This document shows positions 8,425 to 27,228 of a stretch of DNA of 28,213 nt, in pieces. Position 1 is the stretch's first letter; every line of letters starts with the position of its first letter. Below the pieces are notes generated by a model that had not been told where the DNA came from, did no database searches, and saw only the letters and a program-made list of their open reading frames with translations. The position numbers and the translations under genes were made by a program. This DNA comes from a virus, in IMG/VR virus record IMGVR_UViG_3300034812_000171, positions 1 through 28,213 of that record; one strand, written 5' to 3'.

Positions 8425-9360
8425 TTATTTAGAAAATTGGTTTGCAAGGGCGCGGACGCGCTCTTCGATAGTCATGTTTGCAAGGTCGAGTGGCTCGGCC
8501 TTGGGTGCGCTTGGTGCCTTGTGCTTGAGGCCACCGTGGGCGCTCATCTTGTGCAACTGATCCAAGCGTTCGTTGGTTTGTGCGAGTGCCTCCTTGAGCA
8601 AGTCAATCTCGGACTTCTCTTCGATGGCGCTCAGCTCCTCCTTGGCCTCCTCGGCTTCGGGTTCTGCTTCAACCTCTACTTCCACCTCGACCTCTTTCTC
8701 GGCCTTTGGTGCTTCGGGGTTGACCTGCATTTCCTCCTTGTCCTTGTAGCCCATCTCCTCGTCTTCCTCTTCTGCCTCTACTTCGGCTTCGGGTTGTGCA
8801 TAGATTTCCTCCACCGCTACGGCGATGGCTTGAGCGACTTCTTCTCCGAGGTCCGGGAATCGCTCTTGGAGCATGGCGAAGACCAGCTCGGCGTTCAGTT
8901 CTACTTTCATGTCGGTAGTTTGTTCCTCGTCGGAGGAGAGTTTTTTCTTTCCTTTTTTGGATGGTTTGCCACCACCGTCGCCACCACCGTCGCCCTTGTC
9001 CTTCTTTTTGGCGGGCTTGGTCACGTCAATGTTAGGGACGTTGGCAGGCTTGCCGTCGGCACCTTTGCCTTCACCCTTGCCATCCGACACGGGCTTTTGG
9101 ACTTTGTTGATTTTGCCGATGTCTCCAATGGAGATAACCCCGCCGTCTGCGAGAGTGTAGTCGCCAGGGGGAAGCGGGATACGCTCGCCCTCGTCGTTGA
9201 TGATGTAGGCCTCGCCGTCCTCGACAAAGTCGTCGCCGTCGGTGTAGATGACGGTGCCGTTCTCGAGGGTGGCTTCTGCCAGTTCGGTACGTGTCTGCTC
9301 CACCGTCAAGTTGACGTTGAATTTGTGGAACAGTTCCTGCACTCTTTCTTGGATGGTCAT
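8425..9360 (-). CDS. Acidic scaffold-like protein
   Basis: The 311-aa protein is strongly charged and low complexity: a Lys/Gly linker near 110-140 (KKKDKGDGGGDGGGKPSKKG), a folded-looking helix (VELNAELVFAMLQERFPDL), then a Glu/Val-rich stretch with VEVEVEVEAEPEAEE and a C-terminal coiled coil (LLKEALAQTNERLDQL). This composition and its place between protease and capsid genes fit a scaffolding protein, used as core during procapsid assembly and then cleaved. Unusually, the first residues MTIQERVQELFHKF are echoed near the end by MTIEERVRALANQF. The ATG at 9360 lies 14 nt after the repeated intergenic element 9375-9405. Confidence 0.65.
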   Translation of the reverse strand: MTIQERVQELFHKFNVNLTVEQTRTELAEATLENGTVIYTDGDDFVEDGEAYIINDEGERIPLPPGDYTLADGGVISIGDIGKINKVQKPVSDGKGEGKGADGKPANVPNIDVTKPAKKKDKGDGGGDGGGKPSKKGKKKLSSDEEQTTDMKVELNAELVFAMLQERFPDLGEEVAQAIAVAVEEIYAQPEAEVEAEEEDEEMGYKDKEEMQVNPEAPKAEKEVEVEVEVEAEPEAEEAKEELSAIEEKSEIDLLKEALAQTNERLDQLHKMSAHGGLKHKAPSAPKAEPLDLANMTIEERVRALANQFSK

Positions 9361-9374
9361 GGGGTGCCGTTTTT

Positions 9375-9405
9375 TATATAAGGGAAAAGAGAGGTCAATC
9401 CTCAG
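9375..9405 (-). promoter_or_regulatory. Repeated intergenic element, copy B (possible phage promoter)
   Basis: The minus-strand sequence CTGAGGATTGACCTCTC continues into TTTTCCCTTATATA. About 24 of 31 positions match the element at 19541-19570, including a perfect 15-nt block (CTTTTCCCTTATATA). Both copies fill the short gap between a stop codon and a late-gene start. The TATATA end could act as a -10 box, giving a short leader for the scaffold gene. Confidence 0.5.
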
Positions 9406-21365: not shown

Positions 21366-21724
21366 GATACGGTCGAATCGTCGGATACGAACCACGAGAG
21401 GGGCTTCTTCTCGGCCACCTCAATCTCCTGGCGCTCGACGTACCCACGCCCTTTGCCTTTGGTCTTCAGGAAGAAGATGGTCGCAGCAGGGTTGCCCTCT
21501 TTGATGAGCTTGTGAAGGTGGCTCTCTGCGAAGTCGAGGGTGCGGTTCTCGATGCCCTTAACGGCCTCCCGGTACTCGGGGTCGTCCTTAATCCATTGGT
21601 AGTGTGTGGTGCGCCCTACCCCCACGGCGTTGCAAGCTGTCGTCACGATGCCAAGCGAACGCTCAAGGGCTTCGAGCATTGCCTCTTTTTTGGTGTTCGT
21701 CCTGTTCTGTTTTACTGCTTCCAT
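21362..21724 (-). CDS. terS: Terminase small subunit (homeodomain-like)
   Basis: The 120-aa protein begins with a helix-turn-helix (ALERSLGIVTTACNAVGVGR, then TTHYQWIKDDPEYREAV) of the phBC6A51-type small terminase group and continues ENRTLDFAESHLHKLIKEGN and AATIFFLKTKGKGRGY, all typical. It binds the packaging site and recruits the large subunit. The ATG at 21724 overlaps the ParB-methyltransferase end by 13 nt. The large subunit is not next to it; a methyltransferase gene intervenes. Confidence 0.8.
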   Translation of the reverse strand: MEAVKQNRTNTKKEAMLEALERSLGIVTTACNAVGVGRTTHYQWIKDDPEYREAVKGIENRTLDFAESHLHKLIKEGNPAATIFFLKTKGKGRGYVERQEIEVAEKKPLSWFVSDDSTVS

Positions 21725-22881
21725 AGCTCTGCTTTTTTACCTGTGAAGTCCTCCCACCGCTTGACGATGACGTCGCAGTATTTAGGGTCGAGTTCCATGT
21801 TGTAGCAAATCCTTCCTGTCTGTTCTGAAGCAATCAAAGTAGACCCACTCCCTCCGAAAGGTTCGTAAACAAGACCCTTGAGCGGTGCGCTGTTTTTAAT
21901 TGCGCGTGCTGGGAGGCTTGTCGGTTTTTGCGTTGGGTGCAAGTAGTCGCTTCGGTTGTCTCTTTTTAATTGCCAAACGTCGCTGGCTTCGTCTTCTGTT
22001 CTGCCTCCGAACCAGTTGTTGAGACCACCGCCCCCTGCTTTGTAGCCGTGGAAGATTATCTCGTATTGGTTGTGGTAGCCGTTTGGCTTCATGACGTGGC
22101 TTTCCTTTACCCAAATCAAATGGCGTGGGAGTTGCCTACAAAATCTCTCAAAGAGTTTGGCATATAGGCCAATGTTTCCCTCGCCTCCACAAAAGTACAG
22201 ACGCGCGCTTTCCTTCGTTGCTGTTGAAACCGCAAGGTCAAAAGAGAACGGTATGGCCGTTTGGGTAAGGTCTCCCGCGATTGTGCTGTTGTTTTTGCCT
22301 CCTTGAATGTTCACGCCGTACGGTGGGTCGGTGAAAACCATGTCGGCCTTATTGCCATCCATGAGGCGTTGCACGTCCTCGGCTTTGGTTGAGTCCCCAC
22401 ACAAGAGGCGGTGGTCTCCCAAGAGCCAAAGGTCGCCGGGTTTGGTTGTAGGCTCCTCGGGTGCTTCAGGTACTTCGTCGGGGTCGGTTAGTCCTTCAGT
22501 CTCATCTTCAAGCATGGGAACCTCTAGACCCCAGTCGTTCAGCTCGTCGGGTTCCCACTCGTTGGCGAGCATATCCCAGTCCCACTCACCGAAGGCGAGG
22601 TTGTCTTTGATGATGAACTCTTTGTTCTTGGCTTCGTCCCAGGAGGCCACGTAGACGGGCACCTCCTTGAGCCCTGCCTGCATCGCTGCCTTGAGGCGCA
22701 TGTTGCCACCTAGGACGACGTAGTCGGGGTTCACTACAATGGGACGTGCTTCGAGCATCTCCGGAAACTCCCGGAGGCTTTTGACTAGCTTCTCTAGTTG
22801 GTCCTTGCGAATCGCCCGGGGGTTATTCGGATTCGTCTTGAGTTTGTTGGTCGCGGTAAGCGTCGGCTGCGGTGAGTACAT
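21712..22881 (-). CDS. ParB-like domain fused to DNA methyltransferase
   Basis: The N-terminal 1-100 is a ParB/sulfiredoxin-type domain (TNPNNPRAI at 16-24, RPIVVNPDYVVLGGNMRLKA at 46-65). The C-terminal part is an amino-methyltransferase with TDPPYGV (184-190), HPTQKP (315-320) and EPFGGSGSTLI (340-350), again in the beta-group order. Such ParB-methylase fusions are frequent in phages and act as orphan DNA methyltransferases. I chose the ATG at 22881 (389 aa); a longer reading to 22947 lies in the upstream gene. It overlaps the 77-aa gene by 59 nt and the small terminase by 13 nt. The base modified (adenine N6 or cytosine N4) is not certain. Confidence 0.85.
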   Translation of the reverse strand: MYSPQPTLTATNKLKTNPNNPRAIRKDQLEKLVKSLREFPEMLEARPIVVNPDYVVLGGNMRLKAAMQAGLKEVPVYVASWDEAKNKEFIIKDNLAFGEWDWDMLANEWEPDELNDWGLEVPMLEDETEGLTDPDEVPEAPEEPTTKPGDLWLLGDHRLLCGDSTKAEDVQRLMDGNKADMVFTDPPYGVNIQGGKNNSTIAGDLTQTAIPFSFDLAVSTATKESARLYFCGGEGNIGLYAKLFERFCRQLPRHLIWVKESHVMKPNGYHNQYEIIFHGYKAGGGGLNNWFGGRTEDEASDVWQLKRDNRSDYLHPTQKPTSLPARAIKNSAPLKGLVYEPFGGSGSTLIASEQTGRICYNMELDPKYCDVIVKRWEDFTGKKAELWKQ

Positions 22882-23056
22882 TGCGTAGGGTTTCGCGGAT
22901 GTGGTAGTCAGAGATAGCGAGGTTGAGGAGTATTTCCCAGCTCTCAAGTTTTTGGTAGAACGCTCCGAAGTCGGCGGTCTCCCCGTGTTGCTTCATGGTG
23001 AAGACAAGGAAGTCGTCGCTCTCATTGAGCATTCTTTTAACCTTTCGTAGTGTCAT
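22823..23056 (-). CDS. Hypothetical 77-aa helical protein
   Basis: A small acidic, helix-rich protein (MTLRKVKRMLNESDDF, FYQKLESWEILLNLAISDYH, ending QQTQDESE). No known domain was recognised. The ATG at 23056 overlaps the stop of the DnaA-domain-like gene (ATGA, 23053-23056), so the two are probably co-translated and may work together. It may be a partner of that DNA-binding protein, but this is only a guess from the coupling. Confidence 0.65.
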   Translation of the reverse strand: MTLRKVKRMLNESDDFLVFTMKQHGETADFGAFYQKLESWEILLNLAISDYHIRETLRNVLTAADAYRDQQTQDESE

Positions 23057-23895: not shown

Positions 23896-24349
23896 CGCGG
23901 AGTTTCTTTTTGGATTGACTGATTGACTCGTACAGGGTGGAGCGGTTTATACCCGATTCTCTTGCAAGTTCGGCCATGCTCCAGCCCTCAAGGTACAACT
24001 CTAGAACCTTGCGGTCAAACCATTTGAGGTGGTTCGCCATGAGTAGCGCCTCTTCCTTGCGTATGGCGTCGCGTAGGTCGTAGTCCGACACCAACTCTTT
24101 TTGTGGTGCGTCGGCTACGTGGTAGAGTTTCCGGAAGTCGCGCTGGGCGAATTTCCACAAGGCGGTGTGGACATATCCTCCGAAGTTGTCTGCGATTTTC
24201 GGGTTGGCGTCGAGCGCCTGGCAGACGCTGAGGTAGGTGTGGTGGACGAGGTCGTAGGCGTCGGGGTGCAGGGCGAAGGATGTTTGGACGAGGTCTTCGT
24301 AGTTCTCAGAGAACCACGCATCAAAGTCCCTTCGTGCTGCGAAGCTCAT
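23861..24349 (-). CDS. Sigma-70-family-like transcription factor
   Basis: The 162-aa protein has two helical parts like an ECF-type sigma factor: an N-terminal region with DLVHHTYLSVCQALDANP and NFGGYVHTALWKFAQRDFRK (33-74, sigma region 2-like) and a C-terminal helix-turn-helix (WSMAELARESGINRSTLYES at 123-142, then SQSKKKLRDVI, region 4-like). It would direct RNA polymerase to phage promoters, perhaps the repeated elements at 9375 and 19541. The ATG at 24349 gives a 29-nt overlap with the recombination gene; the upstream extension looks like shadow sequence. Region 2 is divergent, so an antisigma or plain regulator role remains possible. Confidence 0.65.
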   Translation of the reverse strand: MSFAARRDFDAWFSENYEDLVQTSFALHPDAYDLVHHTYLSVCQALDANPKIADNFGGYVHTALWKFAQRDFRKLYHVADAPQKELVSDYDLRDAIRKEEALLMANHLKWFDRKVLELYLEGWSMAELARESGINRSTLYESISQSKKKLRDVIRQRTKEGR

Positions 24350-24707
24350 CGACGAGGCGCTTGTAGTGGTGGAACATCTGCTCGAGTTCGGCGTGTGTGA
24401 ACTTGCGAGTCTTCTTGGATTCAATCATCAGACGCTCCGCCGTGCCCTCTCCATACTCTTGGTCGAGGTGGATGGAGAACAGGTACTGCTCTCCAGACCG
24501 GAAGCCGTTGCAGCGTTTGCACTGAAATTGAACATTCCCATCCGGGTCCCACCGGGTACTCATGCAGGCCCGGCTCATGAAGTGCCCGGCGTCTACCTCT
24601 GTCCAATGGCGGACAGCTCCGCAGGTGTAACATTCACCCATCCCCCTGTGGTCCGTCGCTCGGAGCCTCACGTATTGGGAAAATATCGCGTCCAGTTTCT
24701 TCACCAT
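24321..24707 (-). CDS. ninG: NinG/Rap-like recombination protein
   Basis: The sequence has the NinG signature: CYTCG (26-30), VDAGHFMSRACMSTRWDPDG (38-57), FQCKRCNG (61-68) and the SGEQYLFSIHLDQEYGEGTA stretch (71-90). The two CxxC pairs bind zinc, and the central histidine (H42) lies in an HNH-type nuclease context. In lambda, NinG (Rap) is a branched-DNA endonuclease acting in recombination. The ATG at 24707 (MVKKLDAIF), preceded by AGAGGAG, was chosen because relatives start near this point; longer in-frame reading is Ser/Thr/Lys/Arg-rich shadow sequence. It overlaps the upstream gene by 74 nt. Confidence 0.8.
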   Translation of the reverse strand: MVKKLDAIFSQYVRLRATDHRGMGECYTCGAVRHWTEVDAGHFMSRACMSTRWDPDGNVQFQCKRCNGFRSGEQYLFSIHLDQEYGEGTAERLMIESKKTRKFTHAELEQMFHHYKRLVDELRSTKGL

Positions 24708-25299
24708 CGCGCTCCTCTTGGGTGTACGGGATGGCTTGCCAGCGCCCCCGCGAGTCGGTCGGGACGCTTTTGATGGCTTGGGCTTTCTTGAGTTCCTCTG
24801 TTTTGGCTTGTCGCTGTTTGGCATAGTTGTCGTAGAGTGCTTGGATTTGGTCGTCGGAGAGTTTGTCGGGCGTGGCCTTCTTGAGCTCGCTCCAGTTGGC
24901 CTCGCGTACCTCGGCACGCTCCCCTTCGTACTGCTTAAAGATATCAACAAGCTCGGGAAGTTTCAAACGCTCGAAGCGGACGGCGTACTCGCCTGTCTTC
25001 AGTCGGTGGCAGATGATGTGCCATTCCTCGAGTTTCATGGCCGGGAAGGCGTCGCGCAAATGGTGAACGGCATCGATGAGGTCGCGGTCCGCTGTGATGG
25101 TCTTGGAGCACTCGAGGTAGTTGAGCGTGTCCTTGAGCAGGATAAGAAGTGTCGCCTCGGTGCGGGCGGGGTTGACGCGGTACGACGCGAGGACGTTGGT
25201 GCCTTCAGCCCAGGCTTTGGCCGGAGTCATCGGCGAGCTTTCGGAGATGCGCTGTAAGGAGTGAGCCATCTGAAGGGCCACGGTTTGCTCTGCTTTCAT
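24634..25299 (-). CDS. Replication-region protein, possible helicase loader
   Basis: The 221-aa protein follows the winged-helix initiator and overlaps it by 95 nt if the ATG at 25299 is used (ATG at 25266 or 25230 are alternatives). It contains a helical domain near 80-140 (FPAMKLEEWHIICHRLKTGE, then RFERLKLPELVDIFKQYEGE) that I recall from proteins placed next to replisome organisers in Bacteroidota phages. There is no Walker motif, so it is not an AAA+ loader; it may be a helicase loader-like or initiator partner. The C-terminus is polar. Confidence 0.6.
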   Translation of the reverse strand: MKAEQTVALQMAHSLQRISESSPMTPAKAWAEGTNVLASYRVNPARTEATLLILLKDTLNYLECSKTITADRDLIDAVHHLRDAFPAMKLEEWHIICHRLKTGEYAVRFERLKLPELVDIFKQYEGERAEVREANWSELKKATPDKLSDDQIQALYDNYAKQRQAKTEELKKAQAIKSVPTDSRGRWQAIPYTQEERDGEETGRDIFPIREAPSDGPQGDG

Positions 25300-25903
25300 T
25301 GTGTTGGTTTTTGAGTGGGAAGAAACCGCGCCACCCGTTGGCGAGGCTCTGCCCGATTATACGAACGGCGGTTGGTTCGTCTCCGCCGGAGAGGTTTTGT
25401 AGTTGGTGGAGGCTTGCCTGCTCGCTGGCGGAGCTCTTGAACTTGAAGCCATGCTCGTCGCGCTTGTAGTCCTTCCAGCTTTGCCAGGCTACCGAGAACT
25501 CCTTGGAGTCAAACGGCAACACCACCCCCTTCTTCTTTACTGTGTTTTCTTTTGTTCTTTCTCTTGTATTAGTAGAGGTATCATTTGGGGATGCTGCCTC
25601 CCCATTTTGGGTAGTCTGCCTCCCCATTTTGGGGATGCAGCCTGCACGAGTAGTGACGCAACGTACTCTGCCATTGAACGTTACGTCCACAAACCCACGC
25701 TCTGCGAGCTTGCGTAGGCTCCTGCCGATGGTGTTGCGTGAGATGCCATACTCCGCTTGAATGGTTACGTTGGACTTCATGAAGCTCCGCCCGTTGCCCG
25801 TGAAGCTGTCTATCTCTGCGAGCAGGGCTTTCTCCACAAGGGTGAGGTCTCTGTCTAGCCATACCTTGGCGGGTATCCATACGCCCTTAAAGTTTCTTTC
25901 CAT
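25205..25903 (-). CDS. Winged-helix replication initiator (replisome organiser type)
   Basis: The N-terminal 1-85 is a winged helix-turn-helix (LTLVEKALLAEIDSFTGNGR, then SNVTIQAEYGISRNTIGRSL and KLAERGFVDVTFNGRVRCV), as in phage replisome organisers. Residues about 134-198 form the conserved C-terminal domain (FSVAWQSWKDYKRDEHGFKF, AVRIIGQSLANGWRGFFPLK). The linker between them is encoded by 22-bp iteron-like repeats (25573-25638). The layout resembles lambda O, which binds iterons inside its own gene. It starts at the ATG at 25903, overlapping the methyltransferase end by 17 nt. Function is inferred from domain type and context. Confidence 0.75.
   Translation of the reverse strand: MERNFKGVWIPAKVWLDRDLTLVEKALLAEIDSFTGNGRSFMKSNVTIQAEYGISRNTIGRSLRKLAERGFVDVTFNGRVRCVTTRAGCIPKMGRQTTQNGEAASPNDTSTNTRERTKENTVKKKGVVLPFDSKEFSVAWQSWKDYKRDEHGFKFKSSASEQASLHQLQNLSGGDEPTAVRIIGQSLANGWRGFFPLKNQHNESRANRGPSDGSLLTAHLRKLADDSGQSLG
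25573..25638. repeat. Iteron-like 22-bp tandem repeats in the initiator gene
   Basis: Copies at 25617-25638 and 25595-25616 share TGCCTCCCCATTTTGGG; a third, half-degenerate copy lies at 25573-25594 (right 11 bases match). Each core has a CCCCA/TGGGG inverted repeat around TTT. The period of 22 is not a multiple of 3, so the repeats are read in different frames and are probably kept for their DNA sequence. A replication origin is inferred. Confidence 0.55.
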
Positions 25904-26720
25904 CTTCGTGTGCTTGAATTGCTTTGAATATCTGCAAAGCTACTTGAGGAACTATTGCGTTCCCGTAGGCTTTGACGGCTTCGCGCTTCCACTTTGAAAC
26001 GGTGAGACCGTCCAGTCGTTCGGGAAGCCCATCATCTCCCCCGCAAATAGGGGCGAAAGTTGGGAAGGTTTGCCAGGCTTCAGACCTGGGCAAATCCCGC
26101 TGTATAGGAGTTGGCTCAAGAGGCAGTTGTACTTGTTTCCTGGAGGATCGTTTGGGTTGTTCTTCCCCATCTCCGTCCGAAGGGCGTGGCGTGCCTTGTA
26201 CCTCTCCGGTGGCTCGTCCACCTGTACGGCAAGGGGCGTGAGCAACAATCCAGACTCGAGGCCGGCGGTGTGGGGCTCCGACCCCTGAAGCTGGAAGTAC
26301 AAACGGTTGTACCTCGTACCCTTCAGCTTCCAAGCTAGCGCACACCTCCTCGAAGACCATTCCTCCATGCCAACCAACAAGGCCGAGAACGTTTTCGCCC
26401 ACGACGTAGCGCGGGGCGCATTCTCGAATAACGCGCAACATCTCCGGCCACAGGTGGCGCTCGTCTTCGTTGCCTTTTTGTAATCCTGCGACGGAGTAGG
26501 GCTGGCAAGGGAACCCTCCTGTGAGGATATCAACTCGTCCAGCGTAAGCTGTCGCGTCGAGTTCTTTGATGTCTCCATGTTGTATAGCGTTTGGAAAATG
26601 GTGTTTTAAGACTTGGCGGGGGAACTCTTCCCACTCGCAGTTGAAGAGGTTTGTCCACCCCATCCACTCGGCAGCGAGGTCGAAGCCCCCTATCCCTGAA
26701 AAGAGGGAGGCATGAGTCAT
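25887..26720 (-). CDS. dcm: DNA cytosine-5 methyltransferase
   Basis: The 277-aa protein has the ordered cytosine-C5 motifs: SLFSGIGGFDLA (5-16, AdoMet binding), GGFPCQPYSVAG (68-79) with catalytic C72, GENV (108-111), HRRPRVWIVA (151-160) and AYGNAIVPQVA (251-261). It transfers a methyl group to C5 of cytosine in a target set by the short recognition region (about 165-240). No cognate restriction gene is near, so it is orphan, consistent with protection against host restriction. The ATG at 26720 overlaps the small HTH gene stop (ATGA, 26717-26720). A second ORF is nested in another frame at 25952-26578. Confidence 0.92.
   Translation of the reverse strand: MTHASLFSGIGGFDLAAEWMGWTNLFNCEWEEFPRQVLKHHFPNAIQHGDIKELDATAYAGRVDILTGGFPCQPYSVAGLQKGNEDERHLWPEMLRVIRECAPRYVVGENVLGLVGWHGGMVFEEVCASLEAEGYEVQPFVLPASGVGAPHRRPRVWIVAHAPCRTGGRATGEVQGTPRPSDGDGEEQPKRSSRKQVQLPLEPTPIQRDLPRSEAWQTFPTFAPICGGDDGLPERLDGLTVSKWKREAVKAYGNAIVPQVALQIFKAIQAHEDGKKL
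25952..26578 (-). CDS. Overlapping ORF nested in the cytosine methyltransferase gene (208 aa)
   Basis: Lies wholly inside the methyltransferase gene on the same strand, in the +1 frame, covering that protein's residues 48-256. It starts METSKNSTRQ and contains LASPTPSQDY, ALAWKLKGTRYNRLYFQLQG, ESGLLLTPLAVQ and near the end FAGEMMGFPNDWTVSPFQSG and KPSKPTGTQ. I recall this same pattern (WKxKGTxxNRxYFQL, then EMMGFPxxWTxLPF) in ORFs next to or overlapping phage Dcm genes, often annotated only as hypothetical. Length alone is not proof, since long shadow ORFs exist in this window, but the recognisable motifs make it likely to be translated. Function unknown; it may modulate or complement the methyltransferase. 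Confidence 0.6.
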   Translation of the reverse strand: METSKNSTRQLTLDELISSQEGSLASPTPSQDYKKATKTSATCGRRCCALFENAPRATSWAKTFSALLVGMEEWSSRRCALAWKLKGTRYNRLYFQLQGSEPHTAGLESGLLLTPLAVQVDEPPERYKARHALRTEMGKNNPNDPPGNKYNCLLSQLLYSGICPGLKPGKPSQLSPLFAGEMMGFPNDWTVSPFQSGSAKPSKPTGTQ

Positions 26721-26950
26721 ACCTCCCCCTCTCTGATGGCTTCTAACTCCGTCAACTCGTACTCCCGGAACAACACCTCACCCATGAGCTGGGTGAAGGT
26801 GGTGTCCTTGTACTTGATAATTTCGGGAGCGTGGCGTAGGATGCCTCGCGGGTTCTTCTTTATCCAGTTCTGCACGGTGGCCGTGGTGACGCCCAGCTCG
26901 TCGGCGCATTGCTTCTGAGAGCCGTACAGGGTCTTCAAGTAGCTCTTCAT
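26717..26950 (-). CDS. Small Cro/CI-like helix-turn-helix protein
   Basis: This 77-aa protein has a helix-turn-helix at about 10-34 (YGSQKQCADELGVTTATVQN and WIKKNP), as in Cro/CI or DNA-invertase-like DNA-binding folds. The ATG at 26950 overlaps the stop of the upstream gene (ATGA, 26947-26950); the in-frame reading to 26977 is less likely. It is short for a full repressor and has no dimerisation domain visible, so it may be an early regulator of this operon. Its stop in turn overlaps the methyltransferase start. Confidence 0.75.
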   Translation of the reverse strand: MKSYLKTLYGSQKQCADELGVTTATVQNWIKKNPRGILRHAPEIIKYKDTTFTQLMGEVLFREYELTELEAIREGEV

Positions 26951-27228
26951 GCTTTCGTGTATTTGATGAGGCCCCACAGGATGGAGACCTCGGTGGATGG
27001 CTTCATGTACCTCGTGTACTTCGCGCCTTTGGTTGGCTCTTTGTATTGCAACCTGGCACGTGTAGCCTGCGTCTTACTGACCATGCGATGCTTGACGCGA
27101 GCCTGCTGAATGCTAGCGCGTGTGCGTCCCATGATTTCGGCGATCGCCTTGTCGGTGCTTCCTGCCTTGTGCAACTTCTTGAGGGTTTGCACTTCCCCTG
27201 CGGTCCATGTTTTGTTCTGTCTGTTCAT
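26947..27228 (-). CDS. Small helix-turn-helix protein (Myb/SANT-like)
   Basis: The 93-aa basic protein has WTAGEVQTLKKLHKAGSTDK and AIAEIMGRTRASIQQARVKH, a three-helix DNA-binding pattern like Myb/SANT or GcrA-type proteins, starting near residue 8. The remaining C-terminal part is basic and unassigned. It begins 9 nt after the upstream stop and leads into the next HTH gene by ATGA. Paired small DNA-binding proteins suggest early regulation, but the targets are unknown. Confidence 0.7.
   Translation of the reverse strand: MNRQNKTWTAGEVQTLKKLHKAGSTDKAIAEIMGRTRASIQQARVKHRMVSKTQATRARLQYKEPTKGAKYTRYMKPSTEVSILWGLIKYTKA

Follow-up and report, generated by a model that had tools for sequence, protein, structure and literature searches.

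Genes and features of the locus

The window analysed here, a 28,213-nucleotide stretch comprising positions 1 to 28,213 of the viral record IMGVR_UViG_3300034812_000171, carries on its minus strand a C5-cytosine DNA methyltransferase gene (alpha) that wholly encloses a second open reading frame (beta) in the +1 frame. Beta has an ATG start and covers 75% of alpha (Dcm). The 208-codon out-of-frame ORF that the initial annotation had reported inside the Dcm gene is present with the coordinates, frame and coverage given to it. The identity of this second protein is a separate matter, for which the initial annotation had made no proposal. The features of the locus are listed below in the direction of transcription.

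26721-26733, minus strand: purine-rich Shine-Dalgarno stretch gagagggggaggt before the alpha ATG (read from the sequence)
25887-26720, minus strand: alpha, predicted C5-cytosine methyltransferase large subunit, 277 amino acids, motifs I-VIII and X (PF00145, phrog_363)
25952-26578, minus strand: beta, +1-frame ORF nested in alpha, 208 amino acids (ORF list, phrog_1008)
26576-26578, minus strand: start codon ATG of beta, 142 nt into alpha (sequence)
26493-26519, minus strand: alpha motif IV GGFPCQPYS with the catalytic Cys, doubly coding (sequence; invariant in alignment A2)
26288-26332, minus strand: beta motif WKLKGTRYNRLYFQL, beta residues 83-97 (conservation in alignments A1 and A4)
26231-26251, minus strand: LLTP module of beta, the repeat unit of its variable, presumed target-recognition region (alignment A1)
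26006-26065, minus strand: motif-IX-like segment SQLSPLFAGEMMGFPNDWTV of beta, residues 172-191 (hhalign and position before motif X in relatives)
25932-25973, minus strand: alpha motif X KAYGNAIVPQVALQ (alignment A2), which shares 25952-25973 with the C-terminus of beta

The ORF at 26717-26977 (minus strand), whose end overlaps the start of alpha by 4 nt, encodes a small helix-turn-helix protein with a weak YdaS-like match below the cut-off. A further helix-turn-helix protein is encoded at 25205-25903 and, together with the NinG-family recombination protein at 24321-24950 (minus strand, E 8e-14), makes up a module of replication and recombination genes as is typical of phages. At 21712-22947 (minus strand) there is a second DNA methyltransferase, a fusion of a ParB_N domain with an N6_N4 methylase. 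Elsewhere in the window, a 314-codon open frame at 8437-9381 (plus strand) runs antisense to a 311-codon ORF at 8425-9360, which is possibly an effect of composition.

Alpha lacks motif IX

Alpha matched PF00145 with an E-value of 4e-44, yet only over positions 1-161 of the 324 in this profile, and it matched phrog_363 with 2.4e-73. A phmmer comparison of alpha with M.HhaI likewise covered only residues 5-160. The part of alpha between motifs VIII and X is hydrophilic and variable. When 153 alphas were searched with an HMM for motif IX only, the highest score was 0.4 bits, while an HMM spanning motifs IX-X scored above 5 bits on its motif X end in 92% of alphas. Alpha thus lacks the combination of motifs I-X and a target-recognition domain (TRD) that defines an all-in-one single-chain Dcm. 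It has the composition of the large polypeptide of the M.EcoHK31I type, namely motifs I-VIII and X with motif IX absent, and beta occupies the place of the small polypeptide, in the other frame within the large gene.

For comparison we assembled a control set of ordinary single-chain C5-methyltransferases, mostly out of the same host genomes. PF00145 covered most of these controls nearly end to end, whereas in nested-type alphas the coverage usually extended to position ~165. None of the single-chain controls matched the nested profile, and their longest +1 open runs measured 40-82 codons.

The nested frame is conserved and under purifying selection

To what extent could such an open frame arise by chance? 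Using the window sequence alone, a +1 open run of this length (217 codons) was reached in 65 of 20,000 synonymous-codon permutations, in 15 of 20,000 codon permutations and in 294 of 20,000 codon-usage resamplings. Randomised versions therefore attain an equal run in 0.08-1.5% of cases depending on the null, which corresponds to a single-sequence p of ~0.001-0.015. Judged on the window sequence alone, the nested ORF is unusual, yet this is not decisive. Across 153 aligned relatives, by comparison, the body of beta contained no stop codon at all, while the +2 frame had, across that stretch, a mean of 13 and a minimum of 3. The few +1 stops seen in the alignment were all located upstream of the beta start or past the beta end; this includes the apparent stops in three relatives (L050, L082, L093), which were considered as breaks in beta and rejected on account of their positions outside its body.

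Beta homologues proved to be widespread and almost invariably associated with a methyltransferase gene. Beta matched the phrog_1008 profile (E 1e-12), and each of the 36 loci obtained in a scan of viral contigs had a +1 overlap between the beta homologue and a dcm homologue. Wider scans yielded 58 loci in bacterial genomes and 80 viral loci. In all 179 sequences first collected, a set in which the window and three phage records are counted and some contigs occur twice, the beta family was +1 relative to a dcm ORF. The exceptions among the ORFs of these sequences were three frameshifted loci (L071, L086, L114) and one extra downstream copy. At the three loci the frameshift switches both frames together, possibly through sequencing error or decay. 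A separate search route, with a DNA pattern for the C-terminal motif WVEWLMG of related ORFs, returned 120 viral stretches, 114 of which are +1 inside a methyltransferase.

A homologue belonging to a different branch matched 262 records of annotated phages, among them those of 182 Mycobacterium and 33 Paenibacillus phages. In Spikelee, Salmonella phage S9-5 and Microcystis phage Mel-JY01 the beta homologue lies in the +1 frame of an annotated methyltransferase, in Pseudomonas phage phPA-G (L338) beta is the only annotated frame, and in FoulBall and Camerico beta is annotated beside alpha with the two overlapping in part. In the records inspected, both subunits were annotated only where the overlap is partial, as in the latter two phages, and otherwise one of them. 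A potential ATG for beta is found 4 or 13 nt past the annotated alpha start in S9-5 and Mel-JY01 (L336 and L337), which means that nearly the whole gene would be double-coded. The extra downstream copy is that of Edaphocola aurantiacus (L041:3833-4399, plus strand), which begins 11 nt past the alpha/beta gene stop, with no methyltransferase frame overlapping it. This de-overlapped copy indicates that the beta protein also occurs outside an overlap, and it is possibly a second specificity subunit.

We then compared selection on the two frames in 51 disjoint pairs of sequences, using codons in which the alpha residue is unchanged. Synonymous change in the alpha frame was 0.387 outside the overlap, 0.214 inside it and 0.098 over the motif-IX-like part. 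It was lower inside the overlap than outside in 45 of the 51 pairs, and lower over the motif-IX-like part in 48 of 50 (sign test, 2e-12). Along the gene, synonymous change in the alpha frame drops to 0.22-0.25 over the beta motif WKLKGTRYNRLYFQL. Amino acid identity, again for disjoint pairs, was higher in the alpha frame than in the beta frame over residues 60-120 (0.876 versus 0.684), and this was also the case over residues 60-165. The order was reversed in the middle region (beta 0.571, alpha 0.470) and in the motif-IX part (beta 0.834, alpha 0.760), so that change in the middle and C-terminal parts tracks the nested frame.

A complication is that ordinary methyltransferases can show a shadow of this similarity. 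The +1 frame of ordinary C5-methyltransferases from 10 Bacteroidota genomes (L359-L368) matched the nested profile with E-values of 2e-8 to 4e-4. These matches contain 3-8 stops and concern the N-terminal half alone. Part of the similarity in the N-terminal half of beta is therefore due to this shadow of alpha, and the case for beta consequently rests on its openness, the synonymous conservation and the C-terminal half. As a full explanation the shadow similarity is real but insufficient. It does call for caution in searches for overlapping genes.

Taken together, the randomisations, the stop-free body in relatives and the synonymous conservation led us to reject a chance open frame. We conclude that the nested frame is genuine and conserved, that purifying selection acts on it, and that it goes together with alphas of this type. 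The grounds for doubt that the initial annotation had named, a lack of homologues in the alternative frame and stop codons in close relatives, did not materialise, since the protein search produced hundreds of such homologues and no stops in the body. The comparison of synonymous rates that it had proposed revealed strong purifying selection on the second frame, and the motifs that it had named as recurring with Dcm genes (WKLKGTRYNRLYFQL and EMMGFPNDW) belong to the most strongly conserved segments of a real family, matched by phrog_1008 (E 1e-12). Its suggestion that the stretch encodes two proteins is likewise borne out by the stop-free body, the homologues and the synonymous conservation, which all speak for predicted dual coding.

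Beta carries a putative motif IX and a variable, recognition-like region

In alignment A1, the part of beta that corresponds to the stretch between motifs VIII and X consists of a varying number of LPTP modules followed by SQLNPLFVEEMMGFPxxWT, and T114 of beta is near-invariant in alignment A4. These variable modules are the presumed TRD, and the overlap thus probably includes the target-recognition region, as the initial annotation had held. An hhalign comparison of beta with single-chain C5-methyltransferases gave only one match, a weak one (E 0.09) that falls exactly on their motif IX. Motif IX of M.HhaI also resembles the C-terminal segment of beta. With a motif-IX HMM built from 20 single-chain enzymes, beta was weakly set apart from alpha and from shuffled controls; with the IX-only HMM, 21% of betas exceeded 2 bits, and of the 5 tested betas that carry motif X as well, not one did. 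Because this separation is weak, the assignment of motif IX is based mainly on the position relative to motif X.

Searches of Pfam and NCBIfam returned no match for beta, nor did a profile search of the PDB. AlphaFold modelling of beta alone with 141 homologues, an alignment from which three rows from annotated records were left out, gave a low-confidence structure (pLDDT 70, pTM 0.42) for which no PDB fold match was found. The modelling of beta by itself is uninformative, possibly since beta requires alpha.

The distribution of motif X over the two frames was more telling. At three loci (L207, L218, L219) the alpha frame ends after motif VIII, and the beta frame contains the LPTP modules, the motif-IX-like segment and motif X. 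The annotated pairs gp6/gp5 of Mycobacterium phage FoulBall (L333) and gp38/gp39 of Gordonia phage Camerico (L334) show the same split as L207. FoulBall gp5 matches phrog_1008 (5e-59) as well as the motif IX-X part of the phrog_116 methyltransferases (7.5e-6). By contrast, alpha extends across the motif-IX region in 110 loci, and motif X is absent from beta in all of these. Motif X is thus located in whichever frame reaches the gene end, which indicates that the two frames share out one set of methyltransferase motifs. This evidence points to beta as the small subunit of the same methyltransferase, providing a putative motif IX and probably the recognition region.

Proposed expression and assembly of the two subunits

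No Shine-Dalgarno sequence was found before the beta ATG in the window sequence. An ATG is present at the place of the beta start in 95 of the 153 relatives, and among the 133 relatives with His, Tyr, Asn or Asp at the overlapping codon, 104 have T as its third base. In the scheme that we propose, alpha would be translated from its strong Shine-Dalgarno sequence, while beta is probably initiated separately at its own ATG in the +1 frame. Alpha would then supply the SAM-binding and catalytic core (motifs I-VIII) together with motif X, and beta would supply motif IX. The variable target-recognition region with its LPTP modules would most probably come from beta as well. The two chains would assemble into one active methyltransferase that may methylate the DNA of the phage itself, presumably as a protection against restriction by the host. 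We infer the translation of beta, the formation of a heterodimer, its specificity and the equation of the LPTP region with a TRD from sequence comparisons; the anti-restriction role is suggested by the phage context, namely the terminase, NinG and the second methyltransferase.

Alternative explanations

We hold it very probable that alpha and beta are the two subunits of a C5-cytosine DNA methyltransferase of the M.EcoHK31I type, both encoded on the same DNA. The points that speak against this reading are the weak sequence similarity of beta to motif IX, the low-confidence model of beta with its lack of a PDB match, the beta start with no Shine-Dalgarno sequence, and the published placement of the predicted M.EcoHK31I TRD on alpha. 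A different way to use both frames would be programmed ribosomal frameshifting, in which translation of alpha would shift into the +1 frame and yield an alpha-beta fusion with TRD and motif IX, without a separate beta start. The lack of a beta Shine-Dalgarno sequence in the window is in line with this, as are L207, L218, L219 and FoulBall, which need one +1 shift for a complete single-chain methyltransferase. However, a fusion of the window type would be without motif X, which sits in the alpha frame, and the potential beta ATG is kept in place in 95 of 153 relatives. Moreover, the synonymous conservation is spread across the overlap rather than peaking at a single slip site, and the Edaphocola genome has a free-standing beta copy. 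We therefore regard frameshifting as unlikely.

Could beta be a genuine nested gene with a function of its own, for instance in anti-restriction or regulation, and no methyltransferase subunit? The phrog_1008 label was assigned by similarity only and beta alone has no sequence or fold match in the PDB, which would agree with such a function. It is nevertheless quite unlikely in view of the nearly perfect pairing of beta with one type of alpha and of the absence of motif IX from alpha exactly where beta has its motif-IX-like segment. The movement of motif X between frames as part of one shared motif set, and the IX-X part that FoulBall gp5 has in common with phage methyltransferases, also argue against it. 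That the +1 frame is an untranslated by-product, seemingly conserved through the conservation of alpha, is in our view extremely improbable. The shadow similarity in the 10 Bacteroidota genomes (E 2e-8 to 4e-4) shows that such an effect exists, but the shadow matches carry their 3-8 stops and are limited to the N-terminal half, and constraint on alpha cannot give synonymous conservation in the alpha frame, a beta identity above that of alpha in the middle and C-terminal parts, or a free-standing beta copy.

Relation to known methyltransferases

M.EcoHK31I (YGGCCR), from the work of Lee, Kam and Shaw in 1995, reportedly has a beta of 176 amino acids encoded in another frame inside its alpha gene (309 amino acids). 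Like the predicted two-subunit enzyme of the window, it is a two-polypeptide C5-methyltransferase with the same division of motifs over a large and a small chain, where motif IX of the window is putative; this likeness is based on the published motif layout. The large polypeptide of M.EcoHK31I bears motifs I-VIII and X, and the small one motif IX alone (PMC3404938). Its predicted TRD was placed on alpha (PMC3404938), whereas the recognition-like LPTP modules of the window are on beta. M.EcoHK31I is furthermore part of a restriction-modification system, while the window is from a phage.

M.AquI (alpha and beta, CYCGRG) is also a split, two-chain C5-methyltransferase and resembles the arrangement in L207, L219 and FoulBall. 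It has motif X on beta (PMC3404938), unlike the window, where alpha holds motif X and the whole of beta is nested, which sets the window apart from the M.AquI type. The layout of L207, L218, L219, FoulBall and Camerico is, by its predicted motif content, intermediate between M.AquI-like and fully nested genes. Both M.HhaI and M.HaeIII align with alpha residues 4-160 but have the TRD and motif IX in one chain. The PHROGs v4 label of phrog_1008, 'DNA methyltransferase', omits the usual +1 position of this family within the phrog_363 methyltransferase family.

Implications for phage genomes

We know of few DNA phages in which long same-strand nested genes have been proven, and in the open-access literature we found no description of nested genes in phage methyltransferases. 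As far as searched, the kind is known from one enzyme and its scale in phages is undescribed. Beta, conserved in hundreds of phages, is most probably the missing DNA-recognition subunit of the enzyme, as its motif content suggests. Beyond the window, we consider it reasonably probable that a very large and mostly unannotated class of phage cytosine methyltransferases has its catalytic and DNA-recognition subunits on the same base pairs in two frames, so that swaps of recognition modules in beta necessarily rewrite a tolerant linker in alpha. If this is true, few of the long nested gene pairs known from one strand of DNA phages would be as widespread. If the two-subunit interpretation holds, the low-complexity, hydrophilic part of these Dcm proteins that separates motif VIII from motif X would be the shadow of a recognition region in the other frame, and many phage 'Dcm' entries would be half enzymes. 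The pair would then be a rare case of target specificity and a catalytic subunit evolving under a shared coding constraint and, as the activity of the partner enzyme is easily read out, it should be open to simple genetics.

The gene of Salmonella phage S9-5 also has close DNA relatives in 4 of 5,426 Escherichia coli genomes (NZ_CP090448, NZ_CP101866, NZ_CM129871 and NZ_AP045802), full-length in 2, where the annotation names a DNA cytosine methyltransferase only.
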